Assembly (NCBI GenBank): GCA_003388555.1
Contig: QQVD01000037.1
Span: 62,001 to 126,000 of the forward strand
Source of the DNA: Acidobacteriota bacterium
Lineage (GTDB): Bacteria > Acidobacteriota > Thermoanaerobaculia > Multivoradales > Multivoraceae
DNA: 64,000 nt
Direction: 5' to 3'
Position 1 is the stretch's first letter; each line of letters starts with the position of its first letter. A program made the translations under genes and the position numbers. The notes beneath the pieces are model-generated. The model had not been told where the DNA came from and made no database searches. It was given only the letters and a program-made list of their open reading frames with translations. Positions 12,830 through 42,578 of the stretch are shown here, piece after piece.

Positions 12830-15724
12830 ATGGATGGCTTCGAGCGGCCCCGGCGGGGCCGGCGGACCCTGCTGCTCGCCTCGCTGCGCCGGCTCGGTGT
12901 CGAGGTGCGGCCCGAGGAGAGCCCGCAGGTCTGGCTGCTCTTCATCTACTCGCTGCTGCTGGGGGTTTTCCAGTTCTCCGGCAAGGCGGTACGGCAGGCG
13001 AGCTACGTCGACCAGCTCGGTGCCGAACAGCTCCCCTTCGTCTACCTGCTGGTGGCGGTGGTGGCGTATCCGGTGCTGCGCGTCTACGAACGCGCGGCGG
13101 ACCGCTGGAATCGCGATCATCTGGTGATCGGCACGCTGACGCTCGCGGCGGCTGGCCTGGTGGCCTTCTGGTTCCTGATGGCGACCCCGGGCCCCGCCGT
13201 GTCGGCCGGTTTCTACCTCTGGATCGCGTTGGCGACGGCGCTGACCCTGACCCAGCTGTGGAGCTACGCGAACCACCTCTTCGACGCCCGTCAGGCGCGG
13301 CGCCTGTTCGGTTTCATCGGCGCCGGCAGCCTGCTCGGCGGCGCCGCCGGAGGCCAGATCGCCCGCTTCTTCGGTTCGGTGCAGGGGCTCGAAGTGCGCC
13401 ACTCCCTGCTCGCCGGCGCCGCCACCCTGCTGGGCTGCGTGCAGCTGGTGCGCATGGCCGAGCGTCGCGCCGGCCGCAGCCTGACGCTGTCCGGACGCAT
13501 CGCGTCGGCGTTGCCGGAGGACGGCGAGGAGGCGCGCCTGCCGGAGTCGTCGGCGCGACACGTGCGCCTGATCGCCCTCATCCTCTTCCTCACCGTGGTC
13601 GTCGCCGAGATCGTCGATCTGCAGTTCAACTGGGTGGTGCAGCAGTCGACGGAGACGCTCGGCGAGCGGGCGGCGGCCTTCGGCAACGTCTTCAGCTTCA
13701 TGGGCCTGGCGGCCTTCGCCTTCCAGCTGGTGTTCACCTCGCGCATCCACCGGGTGCTCGGCGTCGGTTTCGCGATGCGCGTGTTGCCCACCTTCGTGCT
13801 GGTGATGAGCGCCGTGGTGGCTCTGGGCACCCTGGTCGGGCCGCTGGCGCCGTTGCTCGTCGTCGGCCTGCTGAAGGTCGGCGACAACGGACTGCGCTAC
13901 TCGCTCGACCACGCCACGCGGGAGCTGCTCTTCGTGCCGGTTCCGGTGCGTCATCGCGCCGCCGCGAAGGCGAGGGTGGAGGTCTTCGTGCACCGGTTCG
14001 CCCGCGGCGCCGGCGCGGTGCTGCTGCTGAGCGTCACCTTCGGGCTCGTCGAGGTGCTGGAGACTGCATGGTTCGTGCTGGCCTTGGCGCTGGCCTGGCT
14101 GGTGCTGACCTTCTGGGCCAAGCGCCACTACATCCAGGCACTGCGCTCGGGTCTCGGCCTGCGCCGCGAGGGCCTGCGCGACAACGACGCCACCTGGCTC
14201 GATCCCAACGACGTCAACACCCTCGAGGTCCTCGTCGAGTCGTTGGGCAGCGCCGATCCAGCCCTGGTGGTCAACAGCATGGACCTGCTCAAGGCGCACG
14301 GCCGCGCCCGCCTGGTGCCGCCGGTGCTGCTGCACCACGAGGACGCTTCGGTGCGTCGTCGCACTCTCGAAGCGCTGGTCGAGGCGCGACGGCGAGATGC
14401 CCTGCCGCTGATCGAGCAACGTCTCACCGATGCAGACGGCGATGTGCGCGTCGCCGCCGTGCGCGCCATGGCGCGGCTGACCATGCGCGAGCGCGTCGAC
14501 CTGATGCGTCCGCGGCTCGCCAGCGCCGATCCGCGCGTGCGCTCTGCGGCGATCGGCTGTCTCGCCGATCACGAAGACCCCGAGGTGGTCGAGGAAGCCC
14601 TCGCCAGCCTCGACGCCTTGATGGGCGACGAGATGCCGTCGTCGCGGGCCGAGGCGGCCCGGGCGCTGGCTCAGCTCGACGAGCCGGTCCTCCAGGAGCG
14701 CCTGATCCGGCTGCTCTACGACCAGGACCCAGGGGCCGTCCGCGCGGCGATCGAAGCCATCCGCCAGCGCCTGCGGCGGGCCAGCGCGGGCGGCGCCGGG
14801 GTCAACCCGCTGTACGCGCCGATCCTCATCGCGCTGCTGCGCAACCGCCGGCTCAAGCACGATGCGCGGGAGACGCTGGCGGCCTACGGGGTGCGGGTGC
14901 TGCCGGCGCTGCGCCACTTCATGAACGACGAGGGCGAGCAGATCTGGGTGCGTCGTGCGATCCCCAAGACGGTCGCTCTGCTCGACTCTCCGGAGGCCGT
15001 GGACGTGCTCTACGACGGACTCGAGCACAACCAGGATCGCTTCCTGCGGCGCAAGCTCGTCGAGGCGCTGCTCGATCTCCGCCACCTGCGCCAGGACGGC
15101 GATCGCCTGGCGCGCCAGATCCGCGTCGAGTGCGAGCGCTGCGCGGACTCGCTGGTGGTGCTGCTCGGCCTGTCGCGGCCCGGGCAGTACGAGTTGCTCG
15201 GCTCGTTCTGGCAGTGGCAGCAGCTCGATCCTCCCACCTTCCTGCAGCGCCTGGTCGACGAGCGTCGCCTGGATCATCTGCGCAACCTCCGTCGGCTGGT
15301 CACCCTGTGCCGCGACCGTGGCGGTGAGCTGGGGCTGGAGCAGGCTCTCGAGAGGGCGCTGGACTCGGACCGTCGGCAGCGCAGCAGGGCGCTCGAGTTC
15401 CTCGACAACGTGCTGGGTGAGCCCGAGCGGCGGCTGGTGATGCCGTTGATCGACGATCTGCAGCTCGACGAGAGGTTGGCCCTGCTCGAGCGCCAGTTCG
15501 ACGTCCGTACCCTCGACTTCGAGGGCACCCTGCATCTGCTGATCCAGCGCGGGCTGCGCCAGCCGGACTTCGCGGTGGTGGGCTCCGCGGCGCTGGCGGA
15601 CGGCTTCCGGGTCGGGCTCGAGAGCGTGCGTCGCGTCGGCAGGCAGCTCGAGCGCCGCGGGCCTCGCGATCTCTTCGGTGAGACGGCGTTGTGGCTCGGA
15701 GCCCGCGAGACCCTCGCCGGCTGA
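12830..15724 (+). CDS. Npt1/Npt2 (ATP/ADP translocase)-like membrane protein with HEAT repeats
   Basis: A 964-residue protein. I start at ATG 12830, which has GGGGAG 6 bases upstream; an in-frame GTG at 12812 has no such site. Residues ~25-440 form a polytopic membrane domain with about ten to twelve hydrophobic helices and the family stretch FDARQARRLFGFIGAGSLLGG, typical of MFS/NTT-like nucleotide transporters found in free-living bacteria. Residues ~455-960 are cytoplasmic HEAT-like helical repeats, for example VRRRTLEALVEARRRDALPL and VRVAAVRAMARLTMRER. In many relatives a cyclic-nucleotide-binding domain follows in the same chain; here such a domain is encoded separately 337 bases downstream. 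Nucleotide transport is family inference; in non-parasites the protein may work as a sensor. Confidence 0.75.
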   Translation: MDGFERPRRGRRTLLLASLRRLGVEVRPEESPQVWLLFIYSLLLGVFQFSGKAVRQASYVDQLGAEQLPFVYLLVAVVAYPVLRVYERAADRWNRDHLVIGTLTLAAAGLVAFWFLMATPGPAVSAGFYLWIALATALTLTQLWSYANHLFDARQARRLFGFIGAGSLLGGAAGGQIARFFGSVQGLEVRHSLLAGAATLLGCVQLVRMAERRAGRSLTLSGRIASALPEDGEEARLPESSARHVRLIALILFLTVVVAEIVDLQFNWVVQQSTETLGERAAAFGNVFSFMGLAAFAFQLVFTSRIHRVLGVGFAMRVLPTFVLVMSAVVALGTLVGPLAPLLVVGLLKVGDNGLRYSLDHATRELLFVPVPVRHRAAAKARVEVFVHRFARGAGAVLLLSVTFGLVEVLETAWFVLALALAWLVLTFWAKRHYIQALRSGLGLRREGLRDNDATWLDPNDVNTLEVLVESLGSADPALVVNSMDLLKAHGRARLVPPVLLHHEDASVRRRTLEALVEARRRDALPLIEQRLTDADGDVRVAAVRAMARLTMRERVDLMRPRLASADPRVRSAAIGCLADHEDPEVVEEALASLDALMGDEMPSSRAEAARALAQLDEPVLQERLIRLLYDQDPGAVRAAIEAIRQRLRRASAGGAGVNPLYAPILIALLRNRRLKHDARETLAAYGVRVLPALRHFMNDEGEQIWVRRAIPKTVALLDSPEAVDVLYDGLEHNQDRFLRRKLVEALLDLRHLRQDGDRLARQIRVECERCADSLVVLLGLSRPGQYELLGSFWQWQQLDPPTFLQRLVDERRLDHLRNLRRLVTLCRDRGGELGLEQALERALDSDRRQRSRALEFLDNVLGEPERRLVMPLIDDLQLDERLALLERQFDVRTLDFEGTLHLLIQRGLRQPDFAVVGSAALADGFRVGLESVRRVGRQLERRGPRDLFGETALWLGARETLAG

Positions 15725-16061: not shown

Positions 16062-16520
16062 ATGCAAACGACCGATCGCACCCTCGAAGCTCCCCAGGCC
16101 GTCCGCGGCGTCGAGATGGCGCGCATTGAGATCGTGCTGCACCTGCAGAACGTCAGCCTCTTCCGCTACTGCGCCGCCGAGGAGATCGTCCGCCTGGCCG
16201 GTATCGCCTCACCCGCCGAGCTGGCCGCGGGAGAGACGCTCTACCGCCGCGACGATCCGCCGCGCTCCCTCTACTGCCTGGTGACGGGGGAGGTCGAGCT
16301 GTCGGGCCCCGAGGCGGCCGCCGAGCTGCGCGGGCCGGGGTCGTCGTTCGGCGTGCTCGACATCCTCAGCGGGCGGCGACGACAGCGCACGGCGAGGGCC
16401 CTGCGTGACGTCACGGTGCTGGCGATCGCGGCGGAGGACTTCTTCGACCTGCTGGCCAACAACATCGAGATCGTCAAGGCACTGTTCCGTCAGGTGCTCG
16501 ACAACAAGGAGTCCCGGTGA
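16062..16520 (+). CDS. Stand-alone cyclic nucleotide-binding domain protein
   Basis: A 152-residue protein consisting of one cNMP-binding (Crp-like) domain without a DNA-binding part. MARIEIVLHLQNVSLFRYC opens the domain, followed by LAAGETLYRRDDPPRSLYCLVTGEVEL, the beta-roll core and RTARALRDVTVLAIAAEDFF, then a terminal helix (IVKALFRQVLDNKE). The phosphate-binding cassette is altered: GSSFGVLDILSGRRRQRTA retains the Gly and the spacing but lacks the usual G-E-x-A/S and Arg pattern, so ligand binding is uncertain. The start is unclear: ATG 16062, GTG 16035 and ATG 16116 are all in frame without a strong ribosome-binding site. Its stop overlaps the GTG of the phosphatase-kinase gene. Confidence 0.75.
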   Translation: MQTTDRTLEAPQAVRGVEMARIEIVLHLQNVSLFRYCAAEEIVRLAGIASPAELAAGETLYRRDDPPRSLYCLVTGEVELSGPEAAAELRGPGSSFGVLDILSGRRRQRTARALRDVTVLAIAAEDFFDLLANNIEIVKALFRQVLDNKESR

Positions 16521-18544
16521 GGGCGCCGGCAGCAGGATCCGCGGTGCGGTGGAGGGCTCTCGCCGTCCTCCTCGCGGGTCTCGCCTTGGCGCTGCCGGTG
16601 GCGGCCGAACAGCGCCGGATCGTGGCCGTGGGCGACATCCACGGCGCCTACGAGAGTTTCGTCGACATCCTGCAGCGCGCCGCGTTGATCGACGACGACC
16701 TCGGTTGGATCGGCGGCAACGCGGTGCTGGTGCAGACCGGCGACGTCTTCGATCGTGGTGTCGGTGTCTTGCAGACGTTCGAGCTGCTGCGCCGACTCGA
16801 GACCGAGGCGGCCGCGGCCGGTGGCGAAGTGGTCGTCCTGATGGGGAACCACGAGGCGATGAACCTGCTCGGCTTCCGCCGTGACGTGAATCCCGAGCTC
16901 TACGCCCAGTTCTCGAAGGGCGCGGCGACCGAGGCGCTGCAGGACGAGCGGCTCGACGAGTACCGTCGCTGGCTGGTCCAGCGCGCCAGGGTGGCCAACG
17001 AGCGGCGTCCGAGCTTCGGTCGCGAGTTCGACGAGGCGTGGATGGAGCAGAACCCTCCAGGAACCTACGAGTACATCGAGGCGCTGTCGCCGAGCAGCTC
17101 GCTCGGTCAGTGGCTGCGACAGCGGCCGATGGTGGCCAAGGTGGATGGCTTCGTCTTCCTCCACGGTGGCCTGGCGCCGAACTACGTGAACACGCCGATC
17201 GAGTCCCTGAACCAGGCGGCGTGGAACGAGATCGAGCGTCTCGACGGCTGCCGGCAGGAGTTGCTCGCCTCGGAGGTGGTGCACCCGCTCTCCGACCCCA
17301 GCGACATGGTCCGAGAGGGACTGGCACAACTCGAGCGGGTCAGTAAGCGCCTCGAGAAGAGGTTGGCGGACGAAGAGCGCGAGAAGCTGGAGTACACGCG
17401 CGGCGTGCTGGAACACTGTGTCGACTACGAGGACTGGTTCCTGGTCCGCGAGGACAGCCCGGTGTGGTTCCGCGGCTACGCGCGCGGCGACGAGGAAGAG
17501 GCCGCGGAGCTGGTCCGTCAGGGGCTGCGGCGCCATGCCGCCCGGGCCTTCGTCGTCGGCCACACACCGCAGCGCAGCGGACGTATCGAGACGCGCTTCG
17601 GCGGTCGCGTGTTCCTGATCGACACCGGCATGCTCGAAGCGGTGTACTCGGGTGCGCCCAGCGCGCTGGAGATCGGCGCCGAGGCGGTGCAGGCGCACTA
17701 CCTCGACGGCCGGCAGGAGCTCGTCGCCCTGGCCGAGATCCCCCCCATGCAAGGGGTGGGTCGCCTCTTCCACTCGGCGAGCGGCGAGCTGCTGCCGTTC
17801 CAGGACGACGATCAGATCGTGGCCTTCCTGGAGACGGCGGAGATCGTGCCGCTCGGGGAGACCGCCAAGGGCATCAACAAGCCGCTCAAGGTCGAGCTGC
17901 GCCACGGGAACATCACCGCGTGGGGGATCTTCCGCGACGTAGACATCGTCAAGGAACGCCATCGCGACCGCAAGGGCAACTTCTTCCCCCGCTTCAAGGA
18001 CAGCTTCCGCTTCGAGGTGGCCGCCTACGAGGTCGATCGCGCGATCGGACTGCGGCGTGTACCGCCAGCTGTGCAGCGCCGTCTCGGGAATCGACTCGGC
18101 TCGTTGCAGATCTGGCTGCATGGCGTCATCGACGAGGAGGATCGGCGTGAGGCGGGGATCGATCCGCCCGACCCCGTGGCCTTCGCGCAGCAGAACATCA
18201 TGCGCCGCTTCTTCGACAACCTGATCGCCAATTTCGATCGCAACCTCGGCAACATCCTGATCGACGAGGACACCTTCCGCGTCTGGTTCATCGACCACAC
18301 CCGGTCGTTCCTCGAGGAGTCGGAGCTGCGCACGCCGGAGGAGGTCACCCAGTGCGACCACGAGATCTGGCGCCGCTTCGTCGCCGCCGACCTCGACGCC
18401 CTGGAGGAACGCCTCGCCGATACCCTGACCGGCGGCGAGATCAAGAGTCTGCGGGCGCGCTGGCAGGCGCTCGAGGAGCTACTGCGAGGCCGCATCGCCG
18501 AGCTGGGAGAGCGGGCGGTGCTGTTCGATCTCCGCCAGCAGTGA
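16517..18544 (+). CDS. Exported metallophosphoesterase fused to a PI3/4K- or HipA-like kinase domain
   Basis: A 675-residue protein with a clear signal peptide (hydrophobic 12-30, cleavage after PVAA). Residues ~33-375 are a PPP-type calcineurin-like phosphatase: GDIHG (39-43), GDVFDRG (75-81), GNHE (110-113), LHGG (215-218) and VGHTPQR (347-353). Residues ~440-675 look like a kinase of the PI3/4K-HipA-FAM20 type: candidate ATP lysines in KPLKVEL (455, 458), a Glu-containing helix FRFEVAAYEVDRAIGL, the catalytic loop FDRNLGNILI (D574, N579) and the metal-binding DHT (593-595) in place of DFG. GTG 16517 overlaps the preceding stop (GTGA). Opposing phosphatase and kinase activities in one exported chain would be notable; activity and substrate are inference. 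Confidence 0.75.
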   Translation: MRAPAAGSAVRWRALAVLLAGLALALPVAAEQRRIVAVGDIHGAYESFVDILQRAALIDDDLGWIGGNAVLVQTGDVFDRGVGVLQTFELLRRLETEAAAAGGEVVVLMGNHEAMNLLGFRRDVNPELYAQFSKGAATEALQDERLDEYRRWLVQRARVANERRPSFGREFDEAWMEQNPPGTYEYIEALSPSSSLGQWLRQRPMVAKVDGFVFLHGGLAPNYVNTPIESLNQAAWNEIERLDGCRQELLASEVVHPLSDPSDMVREGLAQLERVSKRLEKRLADEEREKLEYTRGVLEHCVDYEDWFLVREDSPVWFRGYARGDEEEAAELVRQGLRRHAARAFVVGHTPQRSGRIETRFGGRVFLIDTGMLEAVYSGAPSALEIGAEAVQAHYLDGRQELVALAEIPPMQGVGRLFHSASGELLPFQDDDQIVAFLETAEIVPLGETAKGINKPLKVELRHGNITAWGIFRDVDIVKERHRDRKGNFFPRFKDSFRFEVAAYEVDRAIGLRRVPPAVQRRLGNRLGSLQIWLHGVIDEEDRREAGIDPPDPVAFAQQNIMRRFFDNLIANFDRNLGNILIDEDTFRVWFIDHTRSFLEESELRTPEEVTQCDHEIWRRFVAADLDALEERLADTLTGGEIKSLRARWQALEELLRGRIAELGERAVLFDLRQQ

Positions 18545-18690: not shown

Positions 18691-21165
<2,475 letters not shown>

Positions 21166-21585: not shown

Positions 21586-22491
21586 ATGAGAATCCGTTTC
21601 GTTCCCTTCGCCCACGCCGTCGCTCTCGTCGGTGCCCTCACCTTCACGGTCGCGCTCGGCGCGTCCTCTGCCCGAGCTCAGCGGCCCAGTGTCGAGGTCG
21701 AGCAGATCGCCTGTCTGCTGGTCGAGGAGAACACGGTGGTTCGCGCCAGCGTCTCCGGCGACGTGCCGGCCAGCGAGGTGCGCCTCTACTTCCGACGTCT
21801 GCACGAAGAGGTCGAGGACTTCTACTACGTGTCCATGCGGCCGTCCGGCAGCGGCGACTACTGGGGAGTGCTGCCGAAGCCTCGCGACGAGGTGCTCGAG
21901 CGGCGCGAGCTCGACGACGTCCAGGAGAGCGTGCGGGAGCTGTGGGCCCTGTGGTGGCGGGAGAAGATCGCCCAGTCCGACCGCAACCCCAACGACGACC
22001 TGAATCAGAGCATCATCGAGGAGCGCGCGAGCATCGGAGACGACGAGGCTCGCGACTGGATGCAGGCGCTCGACGACCGGGCCCTCGAGGCCTGGCTGGA
22101 AGAGCTCGAGTACGAGCCGGCCGAGTACTACGCGGCGGTCTACGACGCCTTCGGCCGGCGGCTGGCGCGCAGCGGCATGCGCATCTCGCAGGTACGCGAT
22201 CAGTGTCCGGTGCGCCTCGACCCGATCGAGGCCAGCCTGGCGCAGAATCTGACCATCGGCGAGACCGCGGCCTGGCAGCGCGGCGAAGAGGTCTTCCACT
22301 GGCTCTGCGACGGGGTCGTGACGCGGATCGGCTTCGACGGTATCTACCGTGCCGACGACGTCTGCCGCGCCTGCGTCGTGGCCTGGTGGCAGATGCCCGC
22401 GGTGCTGGTCCCGTCAGCGGCCGGCGCCACCGCGACGGGGGTGCTGTTCGTCGACGACGACGTGCCGCCGGCATCGCCGGACCGCCCCTGA
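21586..22491 (+). CDS. Exported protein of unknown function
   Basis: A 301-residue protein that I do not recognise. ATG 21586 begins a standard signal peptide (VALVGALTFTVALGASSARA, cleavage near AQR). The mature part starts with a beta-strand-like segment (VEVEQIACLLVEENTVVRAS), in which VSGDVPASEVRLYFRR resembles an Ig-like strand pair, then a long acidic, Trp-rich helical region (LWALWWREKIAQSDRN, DDEARDWMQALDDRALEAWL). The C-terminal third has four cysteines (DQCPV, HWLCDG, DVCRACVV), which suggests disulfides outside the cytoplasm. It is convergent with another exported protein and not in an operon. GAGG at 21572-21575 is a possible ribosome-binding site, ten bases upstream. Confidence 0.65.
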   Translation: MRIRFVPFAHAVALVGALTFTVALGASSARAQRPSVEVEQIACLLVEENTVVRASVSGDVPASEVRLYFRRLHEEVEDFYYVSMRPSGSGDYWGVLPKPRDEVLERRELDDVQESVRELWALWWREKIAQSDRNPNDDLNQSIIEERASIGDDEARDWMQALDDRALEAWLEELEYEPAEYYAAVYDAFGRRLARSGMRISQVRDQCPVRLDPIEASLAQNLTIGETAAWQRGEEVFHWLCDGVVTRIGFDGIYRADDVCRACVVAWWQMPAVLVPSAAGATATGVLFVDDDVPPASPDRP

Positions 22492-22583: not shown

Positions 22584-23508
22584 AGCCGGACCCGCCGAGC
22601 ACCGCCTGCTCGAGTCGGATCACGATGGTGCCGAGCACCGGCATGCGGCCCTCGATCTCGACCGGCACCAGGTGCTCGTAGTCGACCCGCACGACGAGAG
22701 GCCCCTCCATGCCGAGCAGCTCGAAGGCGTCGGCGCCGTCGCGTGTCGGTTGCGGGGTGATCTCGAAGATGCGCAGTGGCCGCGGCCCGTGGATCCGGCT
22801 TCCGTCACCGAGGGTGTAGTCGACGGTGTGCTGCTCGACGCCGGTCTCCCGTAGTGAGACGCGCTGTTCGTCGCTGCCCGAGAAGACCCGGAAGGAGACG
22901 CCGCTGCGCAGCCGTTCACGGCTCAGCCGGGCCGGCGCCACGAGCAGGGCGATGGCGTCGGTGAGCACTTCGTCGGCTCGGCGCGCCTCCACCGGGATAC
23001 GGGTCTCGGAAGTCCGGCTCCACTGGTCGGCGGGGAGCGAGCGCTCCGGCGCACCGGCGGGCTCGCCACGGTGGGCCACCACCTCCTCGGGTCCGAACCG
23101 GTAGGTCTTGAAGCGTGCCCGCTCGCCGCTCTCGACCAGGCACCGTTGCAGTCCTTCGAGATCGGGACGCAGCAGGGTCTCGATGCGGGAGGAGCGGCCC
23201 AGGAAGGTGGTGACGGTGGTGATCGCCATGGTCTCACCGTGCGGATCGGCGCCGCGGTGCTCGGCGTACTCCTGCAGTCGCTCCTGGACCGCCTGCGGCG
23301 AGAGCATCTCCGCCTCGACCTGCACCTGCGCCTTGAGCACGAGCTTCTTCGCCACCAGCTCGAGGCGGCTCCACGGTGGTGCATCGGACGCCGCTACCGC
23401 AGGGGTGGCGCCGGCGCTCGCCAGCAACAGAAGATGCACGGCCAGCATGAGGCAGGCGGCGCCGGCACCCGCGCCGTCACGCCGCCGCCTTGGTTCTCCG
23501 CTCCGCAT
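22582..23508 (-). CDS. Exported protein of unknown function (DUF3108-like layout)
   Basis: A 308-residue protein. The ATG at 23508 gives a basic n-region (MRSGEPRRRRDG) and a hydrophobic core (ACLMLAVHLLLLASAG) ending at TPAVAAS: a signal peptide. The in-frame sequence upstream of this ATG has no such quality. The mature part is predominantly beta: AITTVTTFLGRSSRIETLL, RFKTYRFGPEEVV, IHGPRPLRIFEITPQPT, and a final VVRVDYEHLVPVEIEGRMP followed by GTIVIRL. That ending resembles DUF3108-type periplasmic proteins, where a lipid- or polymer-binding beta-sheet closes with a similar strand pair, but this is only a resemblance. No operon partner; convergent with the gene at 21586. Confidence 0.6.
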   Translation of the reverse strand: MRSGEPRRRRDGAGAGAACLMLAVHLLLLASAGATPAVAASDAPPWSRLELVAKKLVLKAQVQVEAEMLSPQAVQERLQEYAEHRGADPHGETMAITTVTTFLGRSSRIETLLRPDLEGLQRCLVESGERARFKTYRFGPEEVVAHRGEPAGAPERSLPADQWSRTSETRIPVEARRADEVLTDAIALLVAPARLSRERLRSGVSFRVFSGSDEQRVSLRETGVEQHTVDYTLGDGSRIHGPRPLRIFEITPQPTRDGADAFELLGMEGPLVVRVDYEHLVPVEIEGRMPVLGTIVIRLEQAVLGGSG

Positions 23509-34025: not shown

Positions 34026-34952
34026 TCAATCGACCCTCGGCTGCTGGAAGACGCGCAGATCCGGCCAGCGGACGGCGCTGAGGCGGCGTCCCCAGACGCA
34101 GCCACTGTCGACGCAGACGGCTCTGGCGCCGAGGTGTAGCCCGAGGGCGGCCCAGTGACCGAAGAAGAGCGTCTCGTCGAGTCCGGTGTGGCGCTCGAAC
34201 CACGGCCTCTGGCCCGGCGGAGCCTCGTTGGGCGGGCCGCTGAATCCCGACAGGCGCCCCTGCCGATCGCAGGCGCGGATCCGGCTGAGCACCGAGAGAT
34301 CGAACGCCAGCTCGGCGCCAGTGGCGGCCGCGCGACACCTTGCCGAGGGCGTCGCTGTGTCCGCGGCCAGGTCGACCGGCGTCGCGGCTCCGTTGGCCGC
34401 GGCGTAGAGCGACAGCAGGCTGCTCGCCTCGTCGCCGACCAGGCCCGCTTCGCCGCGCCGGGCGCGTCGCTCCGCCTCGTCGAGGCTCCAGTCGGGCAGC
34501 AGGCCGGCGTGCACCATGGCCGGGCCGCCGCGCCGCCGCACCATCAGGGGTCGCCGCCGCAGCCAGTCGATCGCCGCATCGCCAGCCGAATCCACGAGCA
34601 GGTCGGCGAGCGTGTCCTTGGGTCGCAGCGGCGCCACACCGTGGGCCACCGCCAGCAGGTGCAGGTCGTGGTTTCCGAGCACGCTCTGGAATCGCTCCCC
34701 GAGCTCCTCTTCGCGGCTGCGTGCCCAGCGCAGCACGTCGTGCGACCGCGGTCCGCGATTGACCAGGTCGCCGGCCATCCAGAGCTGGTCGCGATCGGAC
34801 CGGAACGGCAGCTGTTGCCAGAGCCCCTCGAGAGTCGCGAAGCAACCATGCACGTCCCCGATGACGAAGATCGACCCGACCTCGCCCTCACCAGGGCCGT
34901 CGTCGGCTACGCCCTCTGGAGCCTGCCCGTGTTCCCCGCCTCGACGTCTCAC
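34026..34952 (-). CDS. apaH: ApaH-like symmetrical diadenosine tetraphosphatase
   Basis: A 308-residue PPP-family phosphoesterase. FVIGDVHGCFATLEGL (D33, H35), WMAGDLVNRGPRS (D62), VLGNHDLHLLAVAHG (N94, H95), AMVHAGLLPDWS and LFFGHWAALGL are diagnostic of ApaH, which hydrolyses Ap4A to two ADP and also removes Np4 caps from RNA. The frame is open far upstream, but the GTG at 34952 overlaps the stop of the large Calx-beta gene (GTGA) and leaves a 25-residue lead before the first strand; I use it. Coupling a cytoplasmic nucleotide phosphatase to a secreted surface protein is odd. ApaH in E. coli is 280 residues, so length is near normal. Confidence 0.85.
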   Translation of the reverse strand: MRRRGGEHGQAPEGVADDGPGEGEVGSIFVIGDVHGCFATLEGLWQQLPFRSDRDQLWMAGDLVNRGPRSHDVLRWARSREEELGERFQSVLGNHDLHLLAVAHGVAPLRPKDTLADLLVDSAGDAAIDWLRRRPLMVRRRGGPAMVHAGLLPDWSLDEAERRARRGEAGLVGDEASSLLSLYAAANGAATPVDLAADTATPSARCRAAATGAELAFDLSVLSRIRACDRQGRLSGFSGPPNEAPPGQRPWFERHTGLDETLFFGHWAALGLHLGARAVCVDSGCVWGRRLSAVRWPDLRVFQQPRVD

Positions 34953-39896: not shown

Positions 39897-42542
39897 TCAC
39901 GGGTCGTCTCCTGCCTCCAGGCCGATGCTCTGGAGATATTCGTCGGCCAGCTGTACGAACTCCACTCGCTGCGAGGTAGAAGTTCCATCGGCGAGGGCTT
40001 CGATCTCGACCGAGCGCGTCTGGCCGCCGTGGGTGAGGACGGCGGTGTAGCGCCCCGGCGCGAGCTGCAGCCGCAGCGGCGTCGTGCGCTGCGCCTCCGC
40101 GGGCGGCTGGTCGGCCTCGAGGCCCGCCGCGGCCGAGGCGTCCTCGCCAGCCAGCGCCGTGGGCCACGGCACCGCATCGCCCGTCTCGGTGCGAAGCTCC
40201 TCGAGCACGGCCCAGGGTGCCGCGTCGAGTACGACGGTGGCGCTGGTCGCGGCCGTCGGCGCGGGGTCGCCGTCGCCACCGATCAGGCTGACCAACCAGA
40301 TAACCAGCAGCAGGCCGAGGACCGCCGCCGCCACGTACCAGGCCCAGCGTGGCAGCGTGAAGCCGTGTCCGCCGCGGCTGACGGTGGGGCCGGCGAGATC
40401 CTCTGGCGTCGGCATCTCCACGCTGCGTGCCCGCACGGGGGCGAAGCCGCGCCCTTCCGAGGGCTGCGGCGCAGGCGCCGCCGGCTGCGACGGTGGCGTC
40501 GCCCGGGCCGCGGGAGGGGCCGGTGGAGCGGACCTCGCGGCCGGCGGTGGCGCGGACCGCTCCCGCGGAGGCGCGGAACGCTCCCGCGGTGGCACCTCGG
40601 CGGTCTCGAAGGGGCCCGAGTCGCTGGCGCTCCGCCGTCCCTCTTCGCGCTCGCCGCGATGTGCCGCGGCGATCGCCTCGTGCTTCTTCTGCAGCTCGTC
40701 CCAGCTGGTCAGCAACGTCGGCTGCTCGGACTGATCGCCGCTCTCGCCCGGAGGAGGAGTGAGACGGACGCCGCCAGAGCGGGGTGCCGACTCCTCGCCC
40801 TCCGTCTGGCGCGGCTGCGAGGCAGTCTTCCCGGATGGGCCCAGGGGAGCCGGGGCGCCGAACACCGTCGGTGCCTCGTGCAGATCGGTGACCGCGGAGT
40901 CGTCGGAGACGCCATCGTCCTCGGCGACGTCACCGGCGTCGGCGGCATCGTCTGCAGGGCCGCCGGTCCGCGCCGCCGAGACGCCGGAGGCCTCGCCGCC
41001 CTGTTTCGGGTCTGCCGGTCGCGAGGGCTCCGGCCTGGGCGGGCCCTCCGGCACCACCGTCGGGGGCTCGTCGACGCTGCGCAGCCGCTCGCGCAGGTGG
41101 AGGAGCTCGGTGTCCTCCGGATCGATGTCGCCGGCCTTCTCGAGCTCGTCGCGCGCCGCCTCGAGATCCCCGGCGTCGAGCGCCGCCTTGCCCGCCACCA
41201 GCCGCCGGCGCAGCTTGACCTGCCGCGAGACCGCGATGACGGCCGGCACCTCCCCGAACCGTTCACGCGCCTCGGAGAGTGTCTTCTCGGCCTGGGTGAG
41301 CTGGCGGTTCTCGACCTGCTGGCGAGTCCGGCGCACCAGGTCGGTGAGGCGCTGCTCCGCCGGCCCGTCGACTGCCGGCGCCGGTTCGCCCAGCGGTGCT
41401 TCCGCCGCGGGCTCCGGCTCCGCCGGCGGCTCCGGCACCGGCTTGGCGCGATCGGTCGGCGCGGCTCTGGCAGAGTGCTCCGCGGTGCCCTGACGCTGCA
41501 TCGAGATCAGGCGAGCGTGCAGAGTACGAAAGGGGACCTGATCGCCGAAGTCGTCCTGGGCTTCGATCAGGGCGCGTGCGGCGGCATCGAGGTTGCCGTT
41601 GGCGAGCAGGTTCTCGATGTGGTTGCGCGCCTTCGTCATCGCCTGCTGGCGCAGCTTCTCGGGATCCGCTCCGGCGCGCGCCTGGGGCTTCGCAGGCTGC
41701 GCCGGCAGGAAGATGTCTGGCTTCCCGGCGAGAGCTTCCAAGGCGCGCTCGAACCCTTGGATGATCGGTCGGAAGGTGGCGGGCCGGTCGCTCGCCGCCT
41801 TCTCGACGCAGCGTGCGATCAGGTCGTCGACGCCCTGCGGCACCTCAGGCCAGAGCTCGCGGACGCGGGTCGGAGTCTGGTGGAGGATCTGGTAGAAGAG
41901 CGACGAGATCGTGTCGGCATCGTAGAGCCGGCGATAGGTCATCAGCTCGAAGGCGAGTACGCCGAAGGAGTAGATGTCCGAACGGTTGTCGACCGTGTCG
42001 CCGCGCAGCTGCTCGGGGGAGAGATAGGCGGGGGTGCCGAGCGTCGTGCCGGTCTGGGTGAGCTGGGTGTCGACGCCGGCGACCTTGGCGATGCCGAAGT
42101 CCATGATCTTGATCCGGCCGTCTTCGAGCACCCGCAGGTTGCTGGGCTTGATGTCGCGGTGGGTGATGCCCTGCTCGTGAGCGAAACCGAGCCCGCTCGC
42201 GGCCTGCTGGAGGAAGTTCAGCTTGGCGGCGAGACTCAGGCGCTCACGGCGCTCGATGATGTGATCGAGGTCCTCGCCGGAGAGGAACTCCTGCACCAGG
42301 TATGGGACGTCGTCCTGGAAGCCGAAGTCGTAGACGACGGTGATGTTGGGGTGCTCTATGTTGCCGGCGATCTCGGCCTCGCGGAGGAATCGGCGCCTCG
42401 TCTCCTCGCTGCCCGAGGTGCAGGTCTTGATCGCCACCATCCGTTTGATGAACGGATCGCGGCCCTTGTAGACGATGCCGAAGCCGCCCTCGCCGATGCG
42501 CTCGAGGATCTCGTATTTGCCAGCCTGTTTGAGATCCTGCAC
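39897..42542 (-). CDS. Membrane Ser/Thr protein kinase (PknB family)
   Basis: An 881-residue Hanks-type kinase. The catalytic domain fills ~8-270: glycine loop IGEGGFGIVYKG, ATP lysine K39 in VAIKTCT, HRDIKPSN (D130), MDFGIAK (148-150), GTPAYLSPEQL and DIYSFGVLAFELMT. A long Pro/Ala-rich linker with helical repeats follows (QVENRQLTQAEKTLSEA, AALDAGDLEAARDELEKAG). One membrane helix lies at ~733-756 (WYVAAAVLGLLLVIWLVSLI), then a ~125-residue C-terminal part with a PEGA-like strand (LRLQLAPGRYTAVLTHGG) outside the cytoplasm. GTG 42542 has AGGAG 11 bases upstream; GTG 42554 is directly adjacent to that site and less likely. Confidence 0.88.
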   Translation of the reverse strand: MQDLKQAGKYEILERIGEGGFGIVYKGRDPFIKRMVAIKTCTSGSEETRRRFLREAEIAGNIEHPNITVVYDFGFQDDVPYLVQEFLSGEDLDHIIERRERLSLAAKLNFLQQAASGLGFAHEQGITHRDIKPSNLRVLEDGRIKIMDFGIAKVAGVDTQLTQTGTTLGTPAYLSPEQLRGDTVDNRSDIYSFGVLAFELMTYRRLYDADTISSLFYQILHQTPTRVRELWPEVPQGVDDLIARCVEKAASDRPATFRPIIQGFERALEALAGKPDIFLPAQPAKPQARAGADPEKLRQQAMTKARNHIENLLANGNLDAAARALIEAQDDFGDQVPFRTLHARLISMQRQGTAEHSARAAPTDRAKPVPEPPAEPEPAAEAPLGEPAPAVDGPAEQRLTDLVRRTRQQVENRQLTQAEKTLSEARERFGEVPAVIAVSRQVKLRRRLVAGKAALDAGDLEAARDELEKAGDIDPEDTELLHLRERLRSVDEPPTVVPEGPPRPEPSRPADPKQGGEASGVSAARTGGPADDAADAGDVAEDDGVSDDSAVTDLHEAPTVFGAPAPLGPSGKTASQPRQTEGEESAPRSGGVRLTPPPGESGDQSEQPTLLTSWDELQKKHEAIAAAHRGEREEGRRSASDSGPFETAEVPPRERSAPPRERSAPPPAARSAPPAPPAARATPPSQPAAPAPQPSEGRGFAPVRARSVEMPTPEDLAGPTVSRGGHGFTLPRWAWYVAAAVLGLLLVIWLVSLIGGDGDPAPTAATSATVVLDAAPWAVLEELRTETGDAVPWPTALAGEDASAAAGLEADQPPAEAQRTTPLRLQLAPGRYTAVLTHGGQTRSVEIEALADGTSTSQRVEFVQLADEYLQSIGLEAGDDP

Positions 42543-42578
42543 GGATCGGAACACTCCTGAAGAAGGATCGCGCGCAGG

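Follow-up and report, generated by a model that had tools for sequence, protein, structure and literature searches.

AceK and HPrK/P combine kinase and phosphatase activity in one chain. Both are cytoplasmic, with a phosphatase arrangement different from the one described here, and we know of no transporter link for either. ATP is thought to be scarce outside the bacterial cytoplasm, so phosphorylation there is hard to explain. We analyze an acidobacterial stretch of 64,000 nucleotides (the window: contig QQVD01000037.1, positions 62,001 to 126,000, assembly GCA_003388555.1) in which one gene encodes a predicted exported fusion of a PPP phosphatase with a kinase-fold domain, downstream of a gene for an NTT-HEAT protein. 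Overall, we read the product as an exported bifunctional phosphatase-kinase that works with an NTT-family membrane protein, a reading that we judge evenly poised between right and wrong. The computed fold, conserved catalytic residues, export-type N-terminus, and gene association carry the argument. An exported kinase, a phosphatase, and a relative of ATP translocases together make the question of extracytoplasmic phosphorylation directly testable.

The animal FAM20 proteins (A, B, and C) share with the kinase-fold domain an E-[IV]AA[YF]...VPP block, aligned catalytic and metal-binding aspartates, and export. Their catalytic loop is DRHHYE, whereas the window domain has DRN-x-GN, presumably like the loop of PI3/4-kinases. 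The window protein is further unlike FAM20 in its beta3 Arg in place of Lys, its fused phosphatase, and its bacterial host. The catalytic loop is common to the SCO1664 family (TIGR03843) and the PI3/PI4 and HipA_2 models, but the domain stays below all three cut-offs. The phosphatase domain shares all PPP motifs with a cold-active protein-tyrosine phosphatase, the Shewanella-like PPP enzyme (1v73/2z72). The solved Shewanella chains (331–342 amino acids, aa) lack a kinase domain, unlike the window protein, and positions 95–152 and 211–266 of the window-family profile are unmatched in 1v73.

According to the portions of the papers available, CotH is similar in sequence to Fam20C (PMC12189002), and a study comparing kinases of Legionella, humans, and amoebae assigns four Legionella families to the FAM20/CotH group and describes FAM20 itself as eukaryote- or Metazoa-specific (PMC9758233). 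Direct comparison of the CotH and Legionella kinases with the window protein is confined to the fold list given below. For the transporter, NTT-HEAT fusions that either precede a cyclic nucleotide-binding domain (cNBD) or are joined to one were described by Major, Embley, and Williams (2017; PMC5381601), who left their function open. Those operons have in common with the window the transporter-HEAT fusion, the downstream cNBD gene, and an occasional three-part fusion. The available text of that paper reports no phosphatase or kinase gene beside NTT-HEAT and mentions PP2A just as an example of a HEAT protein.

The components, bacterial FAM20 relatives included, are already known; an exported kinase-phosphatase with an NTT-type partner appears to be new. 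The first-pass annotation, made from the sequence alone, knew of no described system of this kind. Our literature search agrees: for FAM20-like bacterial kinases, NTT-HEAT function, SCO1664, or Shewanella-like phosphatase-kinases, no published description of such a system was found, most subscription journals lying outside its scope. With the present reading, NTT-HEAT proteins gain a proposed partner and the FAM20 kinases a proposed relative in bacteria. If true, it would mean that bacteria have an equivalent of the animal secretory-pathway kinases, and it would assign a function to NTT-HEAT proteins in free-living species.

Domains, export, and active site of the fusion protein

The fusion gene and its parts are as follows.

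16517..18544, plus strand: the focal open reading frame (ORF), a predicted exported phosphatase-kinase fusion of 675 aa, with its start at GTG 16517 or GTG 16544
16544..16609, plus strand: signal-peptide-like N-terminus MRWRALAVLLAGLALALPVAAE, from the sequence and from hydropathy compared with cNMP-binding-like genes
16619..17731, plus strand: Shewanella-like PPP phosphatase domain, about residues 35–405, from Metallophos, profile, and Foldseek matches
17768..18541, plus strand: FAM20/PI4KII-like kinase-fold domain, residues 418–675, with R473 (beta3-Lys position), D495, E500, D574, N579, and D593

A codon-usage gene call retained the ORF, rejected the long antisense ORFs there, and put the start at 16544; read from 16517, the start overlaps the upstream ORF's stop by 4 nt. 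From either GTG, a hydrophobic, signal-like N-terminus is predicted. A hydrophobic segment ahead of the domain is common across relatives: it precedes 41 of 42 PPP genes, 37 of 40 fused (PPP-KIN) genes, and 49 of 55 stand-alone kinase genes, compared with 1 of 37 cNMP-binding-like genes. These counts come from a crude hydropathy scan, without SignalP, in which some loci enter twice and contig ends truncate a few genes. The focal protein is very probably exported, in keeping with the secretion proposed at first pass. The full-length model of the fusion has a mean pLDDT of 90.1 and a pTM of 0.65. A frame error as the origin of the fusion was rejected, the same fusion being present in many contigs; so was a chance motif match, given the profile matches, the fold, and the residue conservation.

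All motifs quoted at first pass for the PPP and kinase-like regions are found in the 16517–18544 translation. The phosphatase had been called intact, and it holds all five PPP motifs: GDIHG (39–43), GDVFDRG (75–81), GNHE (110–113), LHGG (215–218), and GHTP (348–351). Pfam Metallophos matches the focal protein at E 3.7e-12 and is the sole Pfam model above its cut-off there. A profile of 45 phosphatase relatives finds 1v73/2z72 at E 1.9e-52, the next family being ApaH at 8e-8, and Foldseek with the full-length model finds 2zbm, the same Shewanella enzyme, at E 1.7e-16. Residues G50, D51, D54, R55, G56, N86, H87, E88, H191, and H324 (first-row numbering) are invariant in the 45-sequence alignment. 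We assign the domain, from these matches, to the Shewanella-like PPP phosphatases with its motifs intact.

The C-terminal domain almost certainly has a kinase fold, to judge from its AlphaFold2 model (32 sequences; mean pLDDT 95.8). With this model, Foldseek returned FAM20 at the top (E 7.4e-9) and PI4KII second. The VIA-align list is headed by nine FAM20 entries (Z 20.7–18.3): hydra Fam20 scores 20.7, FAM20C 19.4–19.5, FAM20A 18.6, PI4KII 18.0, CtkA 16.0, and HipA 12.1. FAM20 and PI4KII are close in Z, and the top FAM20 superposition aligns 241 residues at 20% identity. CotH is not among the matches listed, which excludes nothing. Profile searches also lie far above chance: against PDB the sequence profile finds FAM20A at E 2.7e-14, FAM20C at 6.7e-11, and PI4KIIbeta at 3.9e-5, and NCBIfam TIGR03843 matches the isolated domain at E 3.9e-13 (49.1 bits, below its cut-off of 172.4). 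At E 0.01, TIGR03843 matches 32 of the 32 members of the kinase alignment, PI3_PI4_kinase 20, HipA_2 13, and Fam20C 8, the window member not being among these 8. The window domain falls under the Pfam gathering cut-offs (16.9 vs 27.1 for PI3_PI4_kinase; 17.7 vs 27 for HipA_2). Within the kinase superfamily, we place it toward FAM20 and PI4KII. The first-pass call of a PI3/4K-, HipA-, or FAM20-like kinase therefore stands as to fold, with FAM20 the best match. A HipA-type toxin or cytoplasmic kinase was rejected on the export-type N-terminus and the low HipA score.

The focal protein carries D574 and N579 in a DRNLGN loop and D593 in an IDHT motif. By alignment with FAM20, R473 takes the position of the ATP-binding Lys, D495 that of the ion-pair acid, E500 that of the alphaC Glu, D574 that of the catalytic base, and D593 that of the metal ligand; D495 aligns gap-free to Asp152 of hydra Fam20 in the profile alignment. 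The available part of PMC5865150 pairs that Asp152 with Lys133, aligns Asp299 with the catalytic base, and describes Fam20A as a pseudokinase partly owing to Gln at the acid position.

Residue counts were made on 81 distinct kinase domains of 93 found, duplicates and domains under about 150 aa being left out. D574, N579, and D593, singled out at first pass, are conserved in 78, 76, and 81 of these; neither an unrelated fold nor loss of these residues, the two outcomes named at first pass as refuting its reading, was observed. The D495 column holds D in 74 rows and E in 7; beta3 holds R in 39, K in 22, H in 10, Q in 9, and N in 1; and alphaC holds E in 56, N in 13, Q in 6, D in 5, and V in 1. 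Charges at beta3 and alphaC agree in 79 of 81 rows, compared with a mean of 50.6 and a maximum of 64 in 5000 shuffles. The catalytic Asp, Asn, and metal Asp are kept in every non-Lys row (59/59) and likewise in every Arg row (39/39). Because the beta3 and alphaC residues are charge-matched and the catalytic residues are kept in non-Lys rows, the nucleotide site appears to be maintained but altered, and is probably active. We lean toward the window domain being itself an active phosphotransferase. Two further kinase copies in the same genome (loci L033 and L034) also have Arg at beta3.

Two side groups differ from this pattern. Kinases with Gln at beta3 and Asn at alphaC have Phe for the His that follows the metal Asp in 8 of 9 rows (L116, L147, L104, L140, L099, L100, L107, and L133), a combination that reads as concerted change close to the nucleotide pocket. 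Phosphatase-kinase fusions of a second type (L051, L052, L053, and L054) keep the beta3 Lys and have Asp for the catalytic-loop Asn; 2 of the 4 also lack the catalytic Asp, and the type is likely a pseudokinase branch.

Association with NTT-family membrane proteins

The first-pass annotation had no counterpart to the operon, having missed two genes upstream of the fusion that bear on the matter of extracytoplasmic ATP:

12830..15724, plus strand: NTT(TLC)-HEAT protein, 964 aa, with an ATP/ADP-translocase-like domain at about residues 30–430, then C-terminal HEAT repeats
16062..16520, plus strand: cyclic-nucleotide-binding-like (cNMP-binding-like) protein, 152 aa, matching Pfam cNMP_binding at 63.3 bits (cut-off 27.5), with no export-type segment

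The first 455 aa of the NTT-HEAT protein reach 33.0 bits with Pfam TLC (cut-off 21), a model that matches 28 of 29 NTT relatives at E 0.01 or better. HEAT_2 matches at E 7.8e-24 (ORF read from 12812), and a profile of the 29 relatives finds the ADP,ATP carriers 9j3n (E 3.2e-33) and 9j3j (3.3e-27) in PDB. Hydropathy gives 11 segments within the first 430 residues in a rough topology scan that probably missed one helix. Because the odd-numbered loops carry more basic residues, the N-terminus and the HEAT repeats would face the cytoplasm. The cNMP-binding-like protein could have the NTT-HEAT protein, or some other ligand, as its binding partner; its family has a highly conserved C-terminal stretch, FFDLLxNNIEIVKALFR.

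Neighborhoods were compared in the best 80 of 321 relatives, at loci found via the phosphatase/kinase. Of these, 26 contain a fusion and 36 only a phosphatase; in 18 no phosphatase was called. An NTT or HEAT gene lies within 3 genes in 21 of the 26 fusion loci, in several gene orders; 3 of these (L080, L083, and L091) show the HEAT end alone, where the contig begins. Of the five others, two are truncated close ahead of the called gene, L074 at 77 bases and L077 at 22, and L081, L087, and the gammaproteobacterial L095 show none. A kinase lies within 3 genes in 21 of the 36 phosphatase-alone loci. Besides the order seen in the window (NTT-HEAT, cNBD, fusion), we find fusion, NTT-HEAT (L079, the Latescibacterota locus L082, and L084); kinase, phosphatase, NTT-HEAT (L129, as well as L134 and L140, whose kinase genes lie on the opposite strand); and phosphatase, NTT-HEAT, x, kinase (L104, L116, and L147). 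A convergent NTT-like gene accompanies the fusion in Kangiella and in a Lysobacterales contig (L106, L108, L123, and L124, the last with just 193 aa called). The two genes run tail to tail, and in L106 and L108 they overlap by 14 bases. The NTT-like proteins of L106, L108, and L123 end in a He_PIG Ig-like match instead of HEAT repeats, above the cut-off in L106 and L123 and below it in L108.

Because this sample was found through the phosphatase/kinase, co-occurrence was tested on 297 acidobacterial genomes, with the phosphatase/kinase and NTT profiles run on the same set. A phosphatase/kinase match occurs in 61 genomes (42 of 168 genera) and an NTT-like protein in 115; 59 genomes have both and 180 neither. 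Genomes with the family thus carry an NTT-like protein in 59 of 61 cases, and those lacking the family in 56 of 236 (Fisher p 2.8e-27, with no correction for kinship). The counts are approximate: the first look scored 4 and 6 candidates per genome, a match may cover one domain, and 3 of the 61 phosphatase/kinase genomes are weak (E 4e-31 to 2.5e-33). Among the matches listed, at least 28 of 58 genomes have a phosphatase/kinase gene and an NTT gene no more than 10 kb apart. In a 70-genome sample, counted by eye, all 10 kinase-bearing genomes have an NTT-like protein, nearby in 4; 5 further genomes match via the phosphatase part alone. The family is patchy among the window's relatives, with a match in 19 of 60, and an initial contig scan with P0001 returned no relative. 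A functional link between the family and NTT-like proteins is likely, and from this distribution we hold it with good confidence.

Nine acidobacterial regions were picked for close gene spacing and therefore say nothing about frequency; one of them, L161, is uninformative, its gene calls being apparently in wrong frames. In five (L153–L157), a phosphatase and a kinase are followed by a short NTT and then by one to three more kinases, and NTT-HEAT genes are close by in 4 of the 5, L156 being cut at the contig start. They represent three genera: L153 and L157 share a genus code, as do L154 and L156. At the six site positions, the ten kinases other than those adjoining the phosphatase show Lys, an acid, Glu, Asp, Asn, and Asp. 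Kinases with the canonical Lys thus share one cluster with NTT and PPP genes in five acidobacterial clusters. The arrangement recalls the pairing of the pseudokinase FAM20A with the kinase FAM20C. Pfam TLC matches the short NTT-like protein of L155, for which a single-protein PDB search gave no match at 0.001. Genes near these clusters include FHA and STAS (L155) and an anti-sigma-like ATPase (L156).

Proposed system and its alternatives

We propose that the fusion protein phosphorylates and dephosphorylates some target located in the periplasm or at the cell surface. Its family would comprise FAM20-like secreted kinases and Shewanella-like PPP phosphatases of bacteria, encoded by genes that are fused, neighboring, or scattered. 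An NTT-family membrane protein would act together with the fusion protein, most likely moving a nucleotide or phosphorylated compound that the exported enzymes need or make. The HEAT repeats, on the predicted cytoplasmic side, and the separate cNMP-binding-like partner would regulate this transporter. Phosphotransfer with a beta3 Arg, antagonism of the two domains toward a single substrate, and ATP as the cargo are steps that we infer. In its fullest form, the proposal is of a dedicated extracytoplasmic system in Acidobacteria and some Gammaproteobacteria, with FAM20-type kinases, a PPP phosphatase that reverses them, and an NTT protein that exports ATP or another phosphoryl donor under HEAT and cNMP-like control. 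We consider this form less likely than not.

Several observations weigh against the proposal; those on the kinase site come first. Both active sites had looked complete at first pass. The kinase site is not: Arg473 stands where the beta3 Lys is expected, and the available text of PMC12599244 treats loss of that Lys as evidence of a pseudokinase. The covariation is also less firm once ancestry is considered. A tree-aware count leaves 3 well-supported independent pairs, of which on average 2.9 agree and 0 oppose (median p 0.25), so kinship may explain part of it. Five of the 81 rows, all in the Lys group, have clearly degraded sites, and the phosphatase-adjacent kinase is degraded in all five of L153–L157, with Cys for the catalytic Asp and Asp for the Asn. 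Since the sites of some relatives are clearly degraded, a non-catalytic role exists within the family.

The same observations bear on a different reading of the window domain: a pseudokinase like animal FAM20A, which would bind nucleotide or another periplasmic ligand and either regulate the phosphatase or activate one of the genome's two stand-alone paralogues. The Arg473 substitution and the degraded sites in relatives fused to or adjoining a phosphatase speak for it, as do EphB6 and KSR1, pseudokinases with Arg at beta3 that still bind ATP or other ligands (PMC12599244, as far as its available text goes). Yet all Arg rows and all non-Lys rows keep the catalytic residues, the covariation with alphaC suggests a maintained site, and no Lys-bearing partner was found in the genome, where both paralogues have Arg; we consider a pseudokinase rather unlikely. 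If the domain is active, its target could be an envelope component (a small molecule, a lipid, or a glycan), comparable to the sugar of FAM20B and the lipid of PI4KII, and the phosphatase would remove that phosphate. The top fold match is a FAM20B-type protein, hydra Fam20, and the next family is PI4KII; PI3_PI4_kinase also reaches many members of the alignment, with the window member below its cut-off. The phosphatase domain, however, is nearest a protein-tyrosine phosphatase, and no lipid or glycan pathway was recognized among the neighbors read by eye, a sulfatase-like gene being present in 4 of 93 loci. We regard this target class as improbable. Kinase-fold proteins such as SelO and SidJ have other transfer chemistry, and a reaction of that kind (AMPylation or glutamylation), with the phosphatase unrelated to its product, would suit the several altered beta3/alphaC combinations that stand beside an intact metal Asp. 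It is very improbable: D574 and the metal-binding Asn/Asp pair agree with phosphotransfer, and the fused phosphatase fits opposed phosphorylation.

The transporter half of the proposed phosphatase-kinase system faces difficulties of its own. NTT or HEAT genes lie within 3 genes of a phosphatase alone in 12 of 36 loci, 56 genomes that lack the kinase family have an NTT-like protein, and in 30 of 58 genomes none of the matches listed form a pair as close as 10 kb. Genus g2 of the window's own family gave no match in 21 sampled genomes, and the 12 of these listed for the 297-genome set have neither the phosphatase/kinase nor an NTT-like protein. Two of three tested gammaproteobacterial NTT-like neighbors miss Pfam TLC (L108 and L123; L106 matches). 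Four charged residues of plant NTT1 (K155, E245, E385, and K527) are needed for ATP/ADP transport, according to the available portions of PMC3306366 and PMC10654386; by alignment, with plant numbering assigned through an inferred offset of 84, the window protein replaces K155 by Tyr and E245 by Ala and has the conservative changes E385 to Asp and K527 to Arg. In the accessible text of PMC3306366, K527R retained some import and K155E bound no nucleotide. A second NTT group (L084, L116, and others) has Asp at the K527 position. Because these charged residues are altered, the substrate may differ from ATP/ADP, and that the NTT-like protein moves an adenine nucleotide is a proposition to which we give slightly less than even credence. 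For its cNMP-binding-like partner, the usual phosphate-binding cassette motif is, we take it, FGE; the window protein has FGV at that position, and the canonical Glu is absent in 26 of 26 aligned rows. Control by cAMP through this protein is a weakened reading for want of that Glu.

Other genes in the window

One further gene adjoins the fusion.

18691..21165, plus strand: HerA-like ATPase gene, downstream of the fusion

It is probably not part of the system: among 93 loci compared, a HerA-like gene recurs beside the fusion just in the window, L035, and L039, and it was rejected as a component. Across the 93 loci, the cNMP-binding-like gene is the most frequent neighbor (24 loci). Every other neighbor cluster reaches at most 10, among them one whose example reads as a Hanks-type kinase (10 loci). 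A search for a recurrent substrate gene beside the stand-alone kinases gave nothing specific in these loci.

Elsewhere, the window encodes a second, unfused metallophosphatase (34029–34853, minus strand; Metallophos 7.1e-10) and a Hanks-type protein kinase (39900–42554, minus strand; Pkinase 9.9e-50). The products of 21586–22491 and 22585–23355 have no Pfam match at E 0.01; their homologues lie downstream of the fusion, in the same order, in L035 and L039.

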